Assembly: GCA_022820505.1 (NCBI GenBank)
Contig: JAJEFK010000054.1
Location: forward strand, 62,001-126,000
Source: Acidimicrobiia bacterium
GTDB lineage: Bacteria; Actinomycetota; Acidimicrobiia; Acidimicrobiales; Poriferisodalaceae
Length of the DNA: 64,000 bases
Direction of reading: 5' to 3'
Shown: in pieces, positions 9,353 through 14,141 of the stretch
How the letters are laid out: each line of letters begins with the position of its first letter
Numbering within the stretch: position 1 is the stretch's first letter
Made by a program: the position numbers and the translations under genes
Notes under the pieces: model-generated
What the model saw: the letters and a program-made list of their open reading frames with translations, nothing else
Database searches by the model: none
Told to the model about the DNA's origin: nothing

Positions 9353-10117
9353 GTGCAGACCGCTGTCGCCCAACTGGCTGAGCACGACAGCTTTGAGCGG
9401 CGTGTCGGATATCGCTTTGCTGACGCCGGACTTCTGACCGAGGCGCTGTCTCACCGGAGCTGGTGCCACGAGCGCAACGTTGAACAGCCGACGGGATCGC
9501 AGGTGGCCTCCAACGAGCGCTTGGAATTCCTCGGAGATGCCGTGCTCGGTCTCTGTGTCTGCCAGCTCGCAGTGACACGCTGGCCTGATCTCGGACCAGG
9601 CGACCTGAGTGCGGTGCGATCTGCAGTAGTGAACGCCAGCGCGTTGGCCGAAGCCGCTCGACGCTGCGAGCTGGGGCCGGCTTTGCTGCTCGGCAAGGGT
9701 GAGGCCGCGACCGGTGGCGCCGACAAGGAGTCAATCCTGGCCGATGGGCTCGAAGCTGTGCTGGGCGCGATATTCCTCGACGGCGGCCTCGCTGCTGCCC
9801 GCGATGTCGTAGAGCGGCTGCTGGGCGAGCGTCTGGCCGAAGCAGCGAGCGAGCCGGGCACCCGCGAGGCAAAGAACCGGCTGCAAGAGCTCGTGGCGCG
9901 GCAATTCGGCACCGAGCCCATTTACGACGTGTCGAGCTCAGGACCAGCGCACCGCCCTCGATTCGTTGCCGCGGCGCGCATTTGCGATGAGGTCTGGGGG
10001 CGCGGTGAGGGCTCTACCAAGCGCGCGGCCGAACGGCGCGCGGCGCAAGCTGCGTGCACTCGCCTTCAAGATCTCGACGACCCACCTGTTGATGCGGAGG
10101 AGCCTGCTCATGGCTGA
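9353..10117 (+). CDS. rnc: Ribonuclease III
   Basis: RNase III cleaves double-stranded RNA and processes the rRNA precursor. The 254-residue protein has the catalytic signature NERLEFLGDAVL (about 54-65), the second acidic patch around ADGLEAVLGAIFLDGG (about 130), and a C-terminal double-stranded-RNA-binding domain (about 163-235) ending in the expected Ala/Arg-rich helix. GTG 9353 is one base after the acpP stop. The 3' end overlaps the next gene by eight bases. Confidence 0.95.
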   Translation: MQTAVAQLAEHDSFERRVGYRFADAGLLTEALSHRSWCHERNVEQPTGSQVASNERLEFLGDAVLGLCVCQLAVTRWPDLGPGDLSAVRSAVVNASALAEAARRCELGPALLLGKGEAATGGADKESILADGLEAVLGAIFLDGGLAAARDVVERLLGERLAEAASEPGTREAKNRLQELVARQFGTEPIYDVSSSGPAHRPRFVAAARICDEVWGRGEGSTKRAAERRAAQAACTRLQDLDDPPVDAEEPAHG

Positions 10118-10943
10118 GCTGCCGGAGATCGAGATTGCCAAGCGCGATCTGGACAAGGAAGTCGCGACCCCGCGCAAGATCAAGTCGGTCGATGTCCCCG
10201 GCACCAAGAAGGCGCTGCCGGCGATGCGCTCCAAGCAGCAGTTCGCCGACTTGCTGGTTGACAAGAGGATCACTTCGGTGTCCCGCCAGGGAACGCTGAT
10301 TCTCTTCCATCTCGACACAGAGGAGATCATGGTCGCGAACCTCGGCGCGACAGGTTCGTTCAGGCGGGCAACGTCACGCATGCCACAGGATCCCGATACC
10401 AAGGTCGTGCTCACGTTCACAAAGGGCGGGCAGTTGCGCCTGCTCGACTCAGGTGACGAGGCGACGCTGCGCGTACTGTCGTGGTCTCGCTACGACAAGA
10501 TCTACCCGCAGCAGGTCGATCTCGGCTTCGACCCGGTTGACATGCCGATGCCGTGGACTGACTTCGCGCTCATGCTGCGCGGCCGTTCTGACACGATCCG
10601 CGATCTGCTGCTGGACCAGACGTTCGTTGTCGGCCTCGGACCGATGTACTCCGACGAGGTGCTGCATGCGGCGCGGCTCTCCCATGCACGCGTTGCCAGC
10701 GAACTGAACACTCAAGAAGTGCGTCGGCTGTACCGCGCCATCGTCGAAACGGTTCACAACTCCATCAAGTACCGAGGTTCGGGCACCAGCGGCCATCTCG
10801 ACATCTTCGGCAAGTCGGGGGGCTTCGATTCCTATCTCGAGGTCTTCGGGCGGGCGGGCGAGCGATGTCGCAACGGCCGGGGCGATGTCCTCACGACGGT
10901 GATCCGGGGTGTGACGCACCACTACTGCGATTATCAGGTGTAG
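10110..10943 (+). CDS. Degenerate MutM/Nei-family protein lacking the catalytic proline
   Basis: The 277-residue protein has the full Fpg/Nei layout: N-terminal beta-sandwich, helix-two-turns-helix region (DLLLDQTFVVGLGPMYSDEVL) and a C-terminal finger region. Active Fpg enzymes start with Pro-Glu after Met removal; here the start reads MAELPE, so the nucleophilic proline is Ala. The lysine of the RGK loop is Thr (RQGTLIL), the Asn of the usual GIGNIYADE is Pro (GLGPMYSDE), and the finger keeps only two of four cysteines (ERCRN and HYCDYQ). Glu3 is kept. The protein sits in the usual rnc-mutM-smc slot. I infer a DNA-binding protein or an altered lesion reader rather than a normal glycosylase/lyase. 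ATG 10110 overlaps rnc. Confidence 0.8.
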   Translation: MAELPEIEIAKRDLDKEVATPRKIKSVDVPGTKKALPAMRSKQQFADLLVDKRITSVSRQGTLILFHLDTEEIMVANLGATGSFRRATSRMPQDPDTKVVLTFTKGGQLRLLDSGDEATLRVLSWSRYDKIYPQQVDLGFDPVDMPMPWTDFALMLRGRSDTIRDLLLDQTFVVGLGPMYSDEVLHAARLSHARVASELNTQEVRRLYRAIVETVHNSIKYRGSGTSGHLDIFGKSGGFDSYLEVFGRAGERCRNGRGDVLTTVIRGVTHHYCDYQV

Positions 10944-10970: not shown

Positions 10971-13900
10971 GTGTTCCTCCGCTCCCTGACTCTGTCCGGT
11001 TTCAAGTCGTTCGCGGACACGGCCACGCTCACCTTCGAGCCGGGCGTCACCGTGGTGGTGGGCCCGAACGGCAGCGGCAAGTCGAACGTCGTCGACGCGA
11101 TCGCGTGGGTGCTCGGCGCGCAAGGGCCGCGCGCGTTGCGAGGTCAGCGGATGGACGACGTCGTCTTCGCGGGCACTGATCGCCGGACGGCCCTGGGCCG
11201 AGCACAGGTCACCCTGGTCATCGACAACGAGTCGCAGACGCTGCCCACGCAGACGGCAGAAGTAGCCATCACTCGCACGCTGTTCCGCTCGGGCGAGTCC
11301 GAATATGCACTCAACGGAACGCCCTGCCGGCTGCTCGACCTGCAGGAACTGCTCAACGACGCCGGGGTCGGCCGCCAGCAGCACATCATCGTGGCCCAAG
11401 GCCAGATCGAGCAGGTGTTGGCAGCTCGTCCCGAAGAACGGCGAGCGCTGATCGAGGAAGCGGCCGGTGTGCTGAAGTTCCGTCGCCGCAAGGAGCGCGC
11501 CGAACGGCGGCTGGAGGGCACTGAGGCACATGTGACCCGGCTGGTGGATCTGCAGCGCGAGCTGCGTCGCCAGCTGCGGCCGCTGGAGCGTCAGGCCGCC
11601 GCTGCCCGGCGGTATCAGGAGATCAGCGCAGAACTGGTTGAGCTCCAGCTCTACAACGCCGGACGCGAGCTGGCTGCACACCAGGAGGCGCAGCGCGAGT
11701 CCGACGCTCGGCGAGTCACCTTCACAGCCCAGCAGGAAGCGGTGGCGGCATCGATATCCGACATCGACGGGGCGATCGACGATGCGCAGTCCCAGCTTGC
11801 ACAACTGACCGCCGAACCGGCTGATCGGCTGCCGCGGGTGGTGTCGCTGTCGGAGCGGGCGCGCGGCTTGATCGGCCAGACGTATGAGCGAATGCGCTCA
11901 GTCGAGCGAGAACGCAACGCCCTGCTCGATTCCGATGTGGTGGTGACGTTGACCGACGAGCACGCTCGCGTCTCGGCCGAACTGGCCGATATCGACGTCG
12001 CCTCTGCGCAGGCTGCATCGTCAGGCGATCCGGCGGATGACGCCGGCTCGCAGACCGGTGACGGTGCGGACGTCCATACGGCCGAACAAGCCCACGCTGA
12101 GGCCGAGGAGCGTCTCGCCTCTGCAGCCGCATCGCTGTCACAGGCCGACGAGCATCAGAGAGGCACGGCCGAGGAGCTGCAGCACTGGATCGGGCGCTTC
12201 GAGGCGTTGGCGTCCGCGGTCGCCGCTGCGCGCACCGATTCGGGCATCGCTGCGCTGGATGGCGTGACCGGAGTTGTCGGTGTGCTCGGCGATCTGGTGA
12301 CGATTGAGGGCGGCTGGGAAGCCGCTGCCGAGGCTGCCGCGGACGGAGCGCTGTCGGCAGTCGTCGTTCGCGATGACAGAGCAGCTGCAGCGGCCCTTGC
12401 GGCGCTGGCCGACGGCGATTCGCACGGCTCGGTGATCTCGCTCGACAAGCTGCCAGCCGCTCGCGAGCCGAGCCGTCAGGCAGCAGGCGGCGAGTTCGTG
12501 CGACCGCATCTGCAGGTGGCCGCCGATGCTCCGGATTGGTGCCGCAATGAGCTTGAGATGCTGCTGGATGCAGTTGTCGATGAAGCGACCTGTGTCCCGG
12601 GTGACTGGTCGAGCGCGTACGACCGTGCGCTGGCCGACCGCGAAGCAGTCTTTGTGACGGCAAGCGGCGACCGGTTCGGGCCTCGACGTTGGCGGATCGG
12701 CAGCACCGGTCCGGCTGCGGCCACCGCGGCGCTCGATCATGCACGCGGACGGATTGACGAGCTGACCCACGACCATCGTCAGGCGGCCGCAGCTTGGGCC
12801 TCGGCGCAGCAGGCGCATGGGGCCGCACTCGATGGGTTCCAGCAGGCTCAGCGCGCAGCGGAGGCGCTGCGACGCCGTGTCGCCGCTGCTGCCGCCCGGC
12901 AGGCCGCTCAAGCCCAGGCCGCCCACGAGCAGGCCGCCGCGCAGCAGCAGCGCCAGTCGGCGCTCGCCGAGCGGCTCGAGGCCATTTCGCAGCGTCTTGC
13001 AGGTCACCAGAGCTCTCATGCAGCCGCGTCCGCTCGGCTGGACAGGGCCGAGGTCATCGTGTCGGGGTTGGATCGACTCGCGCTGCTGCTCTCACAGCAC
13101 CGTCAGCGCCTCGATGCCGAGGCACGGCACCTGCGTTCTCGCTACGAGGCCCGCACCGAGCTCGTGCGGCAGCTCACGGAGCGCCTCGACGCACTCCGTC
13201 ACGAACGTGACGCGGCGGCCGCCCGCCAAGAGCAGCTGCGCACCGAGCTCGCGGCGCTCGACGTGGCTGATGCAGAACGGCGCACCAAGCGGGACGCCCT
13301 GATCTCGGCGCTGCGTGCGGACTTCGACGCAGACCCTGCGACGGCGCTCGCTGCATCGCCGCCGCCGCTGCCCGACGGCGTCACCGCGGCGGCACACGAG
13401 CGGGCACTGCGAGCGGATCTGAACCGCCTGGGCCCGGTGAACCCGCTGGCGCTGTCGGAGTACGAGGAAGCTTCGGAGCGCTTCGAATTCGTGGCCGCCC
13501 AGCTTGCGGACGTGCGCAACAGCCGCAGGGAGCTGCACAAGGTCATCCGCGCCATCGACGCGGAGATCATCGCCACATTCGCGGACGCATTCGAAGATGT
13601 CGCCCGGAACTTTGCCGAGCTGTTCAGCACGCTGTTCCCGGGCGGCACGGGCCGGCTCTCGCTGACCGATCCCGAAGAGCTCCTCACGTGCGGGGTGGAA
13701 CTTGATGTTCGGCCGGCCGGCAAGCGCGTCGGACGGCTGTCGCTGCTGTCGGGCGGCGAGCGCTCGCTGGTGGCGCTGGCCTACCTCTTCGCCGTCTTTC
13801 GCAGCCGGCCGTCGCCGTTCTACGTCCTCGACGAAGTCGAAGCAGCGCTCGACGACGTCAACCTGCAGCGTTTCTTGGACCTGGTGGCAGAGTTCCGGAG

Positions 13901-14141
13901 GGAGTCGCAGTTGATCATCGTGAGCCACCAACGACGCACGATGGAATCGGCTGATGTCCTGTACGGCGTGTCCATGCCGCCCGGCGGCTCGAGCGTGGTG
14001 GTTTCGGAGCGGCCTTCCCAAGCGGCCGCACTCATCGCTGCTGGCGGCTCACCCGGATCCGAGGGGCCGCTGCCGGAACGGCCGGAGTCGGAACAGCTCG
14101 AATCGGAACACGGCAGGGAGCCCGCGACGGCGCCTCGGTAG
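10971..14141 (+). CDS. smc: Chromosome segregation SMC protein
   Basis: SMC forms the condensin core that compacts and separates daughter chromosomes. At 1056 residues it is shorter than the roughly 1150-1200 usual, the shortfall being in the coiled-coil arms. Seen in order: Walker A GPNGSGKS (31-38), first arm (about 170-425, with a Gly/Asp-rich interruption near 345-365), hinge (about 428-590, beginning DGVTGVVGVLGDLV), second arm (about 600-830), signature LSLLSGGERSLVALAYL, Walker B FYVLDEVEAALDD and a short disordered tail. GTG 10971 gives the canonical start MFLRSLTLSGFKSF. ftsY follows after 11 bases, the usual smc-ftsY-ffh order; kleisin ScpA and ScpB are not in this window. Confidence 0.95.
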   Translation: MFLRSLTLSGFKSFADTATLTFEPGVTVVVGPNGSGKSNVVDAIAWVLGAQGPRALRGQRMDDVVFAGTDRRTALGRAQVTLVIDNESQTLPTQTAEVAITRTLFRSGESEYALNGTPCRLLDLQELLNDAGVGRQQHIIVAQGQIEQVLAARPEERRALIEEAAGVLKFRRRKERAERRLEGTEAHVTRLVDLQRELRRQLRPLERQAAAARRYQEISAELVELQLYNAGRELAAHQEAQRESDARRVTFTAQQEAVAASISDIDGAIDDAQSQLAQLTAEPADRLPRVVSLSERARGLIGQTYERMRSVERERNALLDSDVVVTLTDEHARVSAELADIDVASAQAASSGDPADDAGSQTGDGADVHTAEQAHAEAEERLASAAASLSQADEHQRGTAEELQHWIGRFEALASAVAAARTDSGIAALDGVTGVVGVLGDLVTIEGGWEAAAEAAADGALSAVVVRDDRAAAAALAALADGDSHGSVISLDKLPAAREPSRQAAGGEFVRPHLQVAADAPDWCRNELEMLLDAVVDEATCVPGDWSSAYDRALADREAVFVTASGDRFGPRRWRIGSTGPAAATAALDHARGRIDELTHDHRQAAAAWASAQQAHGAALDGFQQAQRAAEALRRRVAAAAARQAAQAQAAHEQAAAQQQRQSALAERLEAISQRLAGHQSSHAAASARLDRAEVIVSGLDRLALLLSQHRQRLDAEARHLRSRYEARTELVRQLTERLDALRHERDAAAARQEQLRTELAALDVADAERRTKRDALISALRADFDADPATALAASPPPLPDGVTAAAHERALRADLNRLGPVNPLALSEYEEASERFEFVAAQLADVRNSRRELHKVIRAIDAEIIATFADAFEDVARNFAELFSTLFPGGTGRLSLTDPEELLTCGVELDVRPAGKRVGRLSLLSGGERSLVALAYLFAVFRSRPSPFYVLDEVEAALDDVNLQRFLDLVAEFRRESQLIIVSHQRRTMESADVLYGVSMPPGGSSVVVSERPSQAAALIAAGGSPGSEGPLPERPESEQLESEHGREPATAPR

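Follow-up and report, generated by a model that had tools for sequence, protein, structure and literature searches.

MutM (Fpg) is among the best studied repair enzymes, and it has been assumed to be purely a repair protein. Passages of PMC3188539 describe Lys60, Asn174, and Arg264 as holding the phosphates around the lesion and Pro2 and Glu3 as catalytic; key sites are numbered here according to Bacillus stearothermophilus (Bst) MutM, by alignment. Among its relatives, the AP-lyase activity of M. smegmatis Nei2 requires Pro2 and Lys51, according to the portion of PMC11323726 that concerns this enzyme. Zincless fingers and N-termini other than Pro are already known in active relatives. In the open-licence papers searched, nothing relevant beyond background on active enzymes was found on a bacterial dead Fpg/MutM or on an rnc-MutM-smc cluster, and a joint loss of key residues with long retention of the gene was likewise not found in these papers.

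Here, a window of 64,000 nucleotides from an Acidimicrobiia bacterium (contig JAJEFK010000054.1), in which a MutM-like gene lies between rnc and smc, was compared with its counterparts in the same order and phylum. The window protein resembles MutM of B. stearothermophilus (1r2y) in the whole fold, both domains, the H2TH motif, and the place between rnc and smc. Unlike MutM, it lacks the N-terminal Pro, Lys60, Asn174, Arg264, the residues Met77/Arg112/Phe114, and a complete zinc site. Slot copies of MutM that have lost such key residues are called dead below, and those that keep them are called live.

A MutM-like gene between rnc and smc

The MutM-like open reading frame (10110..10943 of the window, + strand, including the stop codon) encodes 277 amino acids and was assigned to the MutM/Fpg fold from Pfam, NCBIfam, alignment, and an AlphaFold model. 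It overlaps the end of rnc, the RNase III gene (9353..10117, +), by 8 bases, and smc (10971..14141, +) starts downstream at 10971. The first-pass annotation of this DNA had stated that the slot between rnc and smc is kept, and this was found to hold in all 53 aligned copies (rows) of the dead clade described below: an rnc match lies upstream in 52/53 rows, an smc match within ca. 3 kb downstream in 51/53, both in 50, and one of the two in the other 3. In some of these rows, a further gene is perhaps present between MutM and smc.

The gene begins with MAELPE (10110..10127, +), and alignment to B. stearothermophilus MutM bore out the earlier reading that Pro2 is replaced by Ala; Glu3 is kept. 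Orthologues sharing this start, which the annotation had proposed to look for, were found, the start being identical in 11/11 rows (the window copy and 10 near relatives, which are MAGs named Microthrixaceae, Acidimicrobiales, or Acidimicrobiia). The alternative of a start further upstream that would give MP-E was rejected for the window gene, as the in-frame residues there vary and provide none. A sequencing or frameshift artefact was also rejected, because another MAG carries a copy with 98% identity (L034) and nine further copies are 83-88% identical. Internal stops were absent from every listed match of the order-wide genome search.

Fold and key residues of the window protein

Both Fpg domains were detected in the window protein by Pfam (PF01149, 66 bits; PF06831, 63.6 bits). 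The AlphaFold model, computed with an alignment of 54 sequences, had a mean pLDDT of 92.8 and a pTM of 0.88, and its best match in the PDB was MutM on 8-oxoguanine DNA (1r2y; Z 33.0, 2.3 Å, 272 residues), in agreement with the earlier view that the fold is kept. The score against the NCBIfam fpg model (TIGR00577) was 164.9 bits, below the equivalog cut-off of 203.3. Membership of Nei (endonuclease VIII) was rejected, with a Nei equivalog score of 49.2 bits against a cut-off of 252.

In the alignment with Bst MutM, Thr62 (10293..10295, +) stands at the catalytic and phosphate-binding Lys60, and Pro178 (10641..10643, +), in the H2TH motif, stands at the phosphate-binding Asn174; these are the losses of Lys and Asn that had been noticed at first. 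The C-terminal finger (10866..10937, +) has two of the four zinc Cys, also as first described: Cys253 and Cys273 are kept, and Gly256 and Gln276 replace the other two. This finger is still predicted as a two-stranded hairpin in the model. The alignment added losses that were not on the earlier list, namely Arg264 to Val (Val268, within the finger), Met77 to Ala (Ala80; 10347..10349, +), Arg112 to Gly and Phe114 to Glu (Gly115-Asp116-Glu117 in place of Arg112-x-Phe114; 10452..10460, +), and His74 to Asn; Met77, Arg112, and Phe114 are the insertion residues of MutM. The catalytic Glu3 is retained, together with Glu6, Tyr176, and Glu179.

The change of Pro to Ala was rejected as sufficient proof of a dead enzyme, since NEIL3 works with Val after Met removal, as reported in the relevant part of PMC11323726. 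The window protein shares with NEIL3 the replacement of the N-terminal Pro by a small residue that Met removal can expose, but NEIL3 is active, whereas the window protein also lacks the active-site Lys, Asn, and Arg. It is because of this joint loss, and not of the Pro to Ala change alone, that activity as a MutM glycosylase appears very unlikely. The finger invites a similar comparison with the zincless Fpg/Nei enzymes (PFNei, NEIL1, and the mimivirus enzymes), as the four zinc Cys are all present in 19/53 dead-clade rows, while losses of zinc Cys are seen in 34/53. However, in the zincless enzymes the finger keeps its role and its Arg is conserved, as stated in the section of PMC3188539 on these proteins, whereas this Arg is lost or variable in the dead clade. 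As far as alignment and model can tell, the window protein is a MutM in fold and ancestry, and it falls outside the enzyme on the defining features tested, since it lacks Pro2, Lys60/Asn174/Arg264, the insertion residues, and a complete zinc site and scores below the NCBIfam cut-off.

The same start, as MAELPEIE, was also seen in Fpg-like proteins of Acidithiobacillus and its relatives (L050-L062). Their losses are similar, Lys60 being Thr, Gln, Gly, or Ala and Asn174 being Pro, Gly, or Ala, and their Tyr176 is replaced by Trp. Unlike the window protein, they have no rnc or smc seen alongside, keep four Cys, and occupy a separate branch (3 rows in the tree); for these reasons, they are probably an independent case of a dead MutM.

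Live and dead slot copies within the order

A draw of 118 genomes of the order was searched, and matches were found in, and fetched from, 117 of them. To these were added 30 named loci, which had been found with peptides of the window protein and are hence biased towards its kind, while the genome draws are unbiased. Rows with rnc and/or smc adjoining were taken as slot rows, and the 125 rows so counted in the order were scored for six key residues (Lys60, Met77, Arg112, Phe114, Asn174, and Arg264). All six were present in 62 rows and zero to two in 60 rows, no row had three to five, and three rows were incomplete (two fragments with 2/2 and one row with 0/5). One copy fetched after this count (L196 of G031) had 5/6, with Asn changed to Ser, so intermediates are not wholly absent. 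This copy and L198, L199, and L202 stand outside the 125-row count and were scored live in the genome table, in which the scores for two of the 68 live-slot genomes (L130, L136) and for one dead-slot genome out of 45 (L117 of G012) came from fragments.

Fragments and near-identical rows were left out of the trees, as were rows of the Nei type. When the key columns were masked, 53 dead rows formed a single clade (clade A) nested among live slot copies (SH-aLRT 97), and in a tree of 159 rows clade A, at 44 rows, had a support of 99. The 44 genome-draw rows of the 53-row clade span 20 family codes, and the loss is therefore old. Two separate catalytic losses lie outside clade A (L010 of G005 and L147 of G074). 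The loss, as read from the alignments, is thus seen at the family level and is not an oddity of one genome. The first-pass annotation was right but understated.

Loss of the canonical residues could also be compatible with a protein that is still a glycosylase or lyase and works by altered chemistry, with the amine of Ala as the nucleophile and other residues in place of Lys, Asn, and Arg. Glu3 is present in 43/53 dead-clade rows, the second-shell residues Leu4, Glu8, Arg57, and Asp178 are kept and Lys160 mostly so, and Pro is dispensable in NEIL3, again according to part of PMC11323726. Against this, residue 2 varies widely across the 53 rows (Ala 14, Leu 11, Ile 9, Pro 8, Arg 3, Phe 3, Val 3, Thr 1, and Asn 1). 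Leu, Ile, Arg, or Phe at this position normally blocks removal of Met. Moreover, Lys60, Arg112, Phe114, and Arg264 have no common replacement, so that no new shared active site is visible. We regard altered chemistry as highly unlikely.

A second, canonical Fpg in genomes with dead slot copies

The window genome carries two further Fpg/Nei genes, one of which (L001) has every key residue, and L001-like copies (9 rows) form one clade apart from the slot copies (support 99). When the 118 order genomes were searched with one of these copies of the second Fpg as query, 42 matched at E <=4.8e-63, and the next best match (1.1e-48) was a slot copy. The second Fpg was present in 41/45 dead-slot genomes (44 in the clade and G012, a fragment) but in 0/68 live-slot genomes; the 42 genomes consist of the 41 and G070, in which no slot copy was found. 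The slot copy was also not found in G047 and G092, the latter showing a contig-edge scrap of an Fpg. Replacement is not universal, since the second Fpg is missing from four dead-clade genomes (G054, G017, G058, and G099), all of which have other Fpg/Nei-family genes, and it is absent from G005 and G074, the genomes of the two separate losses.

The second Fpg copies fetched from the order had 6/6 key residues in 30/30 cases; of those from other classes, 29/30 were complete for seven residues and one for six. The copies that accompany the two dead clades (clade A and clade B, described below) form one clade (support 99), which fits either a horizontal transfer or an old paralogue that would have been lost in the live-slot lineages.

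A third Fpg/Nei subfamily with a VPEILE-type start was observed in several genomes of the order (L203-L205, L209, L211-L213, L215, and L221). In this subfamily, His74 is mostly Arg, Phe114 mostly Leu, and Tyr176 Leu or Ile, and the second zinc Cys is replaced by Asp.

Dead slot copies in other classes of the phylum

A draw of 296 genomes across the phylum gave matches in 246, and 63 rows, mostly the strongest matches, were fetched and scored. The 37 dead rows all came from other classes, and five of the 26 live rows came from the window's own class; since mostly the strongest matches were scored, this ratio is no frequency. The second Fpg was found in 34/37 of the dead-slot and 0/26 of the live-slot genomes, those dead-slot genomes without a whole copy being G226, G349, and G155. 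In G226, the second Fpg lies in two overlapping pieces (G226:C3:132573-133174), perhaps as a result of a frameshift or an assembly error. Among all 296 genomes, 44 had the second Fpg, and all 44 also had a dead slot copy, one of them as a contig-edge fragment only. One of these genomes (G195) was included on the strength of a partial match (51%, E 7.8e-58). The remaining 43 had E values of 4.8e-63 or better, as against 7.4e-59 for the nearest other Fpg. Over both draws, a dead slot copy was retained in 82 of the 83 different genomes with the second Fpg, the exception being G070, an 80% complete assembly.

In the 159-row tree, the live/dead state requires four changes. A second dead clade (clade B) comprised 36 rows from other classes (SH-aLRT 97) and stood beside live rows from other classes. 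A single dead clade was not rejected by an AU test on a set of 51 rows, thinned from 152 eligible rows by taking every third (p 0.325), whereas it was rejected on 47 rows chosen together with their nearest live relatives (p 0.014), a value weakened by the fact that these rows were picked after the trees had been seen. In the 47-row tree, L048, a dead row, was placed outside clade A. An independent origin of the two big dead clades is thus supported in part: taxonomy, the 159-row tree, and one AU test would favour it, and the other AU test does not.

Ten slot MutMs of three families (f73, f107, and f115; L223-L229 and L275-L277) showed Met or Val directly before ELPE, encoded by an ATG or GTG that is apparently the start codon. 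The initiator Met would occupy the place of Pro2 in these proteins, their other key residues are canonical, and 0/10 of the genomes have the second Fpg. Met may possibly act as the nucleophile in these copies.

Selection on the gene and conservation of a predicted outward face

The median dN/dS of the MutM-like gene among the window and 11 relatives was 0.139 (55 usable of 66 pairs), close to the values of 0.182 for rnc (56 pairs) and 0.197 for smc, of which the first 600 codons were used (55 pairs). Purifying selection on the dead slot gene is thus strong, and these values, together with the retained fold and slot, strongly support the earlier proposal of a maintained, changed protein. If the gene were a slowly decaying relic without function, held only because it lies between two important genes, drift at the cleft residues would be expected, and these residues have indeed drifted and are freely variable. 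However, the dN/dS is not above that of rnc and smc, the listed matches are free of internal stops, a residue signature is kept over two clades (see below), and the gene is retained in nearly every genome with the second Fpg. Such a relic is extremely unlikely, and this reading is close to refuted.

The variation at the cleft was examined at 11 DNA- or lesion-contact positions, nine of which are named in the sections of PMC3188539 on lesion contacts. In clade A, these positions had a median entropy of 2.74, while the median over all positions was 1.84 (p 0.036 for the comparison with the rest); in the 43 live copies compared, 10/11 were invariant. Two of the contact positions, His74 and Met77, we take to be such, the latter also from PDB titles. 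The median net charge was +8 in live copies but had fallen to 0 in one dead clade and to -7 in the other. These values bear on the suggestion of the first-pass annotation that the protein is a lesion sensor or a non-catalytic DNA-binding factor, which would use the MutM cleft to recognise DNA that is damaged or structured and would recruit other proteins. In favour of this role, the protein keeps its H2TH domain and two-lobed fold, and the equivalents of Tyr242 and Arg244 are fairly conserved in the dead clade. Nevertheless, the contact positions are more variable than the rest, the positive charge has gone, and it is a different face that is invariant; the suggested role is therefore not supported, and we consider it unlikely.

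The face in question marks a branch of MutM, defined in the present analysis by the rnc-smc position together with W149, R205, R206, and R209, and the window protein belongs to this branch by both position and residues. The four residues, most of which lie on this face, occur together in 42/44 rows of dead clade A, 36/36 of dead clade B, and 49/52 live copies of the branch, but in 0/24 other MutMs. Within this set, W149, which forms part of the signature stretch Trp149...Phe152 (10554..10565, +), is found in 43/44, 36/36, and 49/52 rows, respectively, and K25, G107, and Lys or Arg at 220 have roughly the same distribution as the set. The helix 201-220 (10710..10769, +), delimited from the DSSP of the model, carries a conserved stripe of R205, R209, E213, (H216), and K220, with E203 and R206 as neighbours. 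On a helical wheel, the angles between R205, R209, E213, 216, and K220 and the hydrophobic side, which was computed without the stripe residues, ranged from 97 to 179 degrees; both dead clades and the live copies gave this outcome. Since the stripe lies opposite the hydrophobic side, it should face outward, as judged from the helical wheel and the predicted secondary structure. The conserved residues could alternatively form a salt-bridge network for stability; contact of this face with RNA or another polymer is less likely given the change in charge.

The co-occurrence of dead copies with the second Fpg would be in line with a role as a regulator or subunit of this canonical enzyme, a part often played by the inactive paralogues of active enzymes. 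However, live slot copies from genomes that lack the second Fpg conserve the face equally, which argues that it did not evolve for the second Fpg, and four dead-clade genomes of the order lack the second Fpg altogether. Such a role is, in our estimate, quite unlikely. The presence of the signature in these live-slot genomes suggests instead that the function of the face predates the loss and is independent of catalysis.

Discussion

The alignments, trees, and substitution rates show that the slot MutM long ago lost the residues for catalysis and lesion recognition, in a lineage in which most members have a second, canonical Fpg at another place in the genome, and that the gene has been maintained by purifying selection. 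From these losses, we infer that base removal and MutM-style DNA binding have gone from the dead slot protein. The residues have been lost across many related bacteria, and yet the gene persists there, conserved, at an unchanged position, which suggests a second, non-repair job of the slot branch.

The explanation that we favour, and hold to be moderately probable, is that the window protein is a MutM/Fpg pseudo-enzyme retained because of an older function, one that is non-catalytic and probably involves protein binding. The slot MutM branch would already have had this second function while still active, and the function would most likely be a protein-protein contact made by the outward face of helix 201-220 through R205, R206, R209, E213, and K220, perhaps with W149/F152 and K25/G107/R110. 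The second Fpg may then have taken over the glycosylase activity, after which only the second function would have held the old slot gene; the catalytic surface would thus have been released from selection, with a different surface still constrained. RNase III and SMC are candidate partners, a guess from their location in the same gene cluster only. The broader proposal that the slot MutM is bifunctional, combining the removal of oxidised purines with an older non-repair function on an outward face of the C-terminal domain, and that this function persisted at least twice after the glycosylase was lost, in each case where a second Fpg is present, is put forward more tentatively, at a little below an even chance.

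If this explanation is true, an ancient family of pseudo-glycosylases would be hidden by the name Fpg. The dead copies are also a warning that the capacity of these bacteria for 8-oxoguanine repair would be overestimated from the number of their fpg genes. The dead MutM can be compared with live sisters in the same slot that have the same conserved face, and the residues to mutate are named above. The branch would thus point to a function of MutM that is independent of catalysis and offer a clean case of a displaced enzyme being kept.
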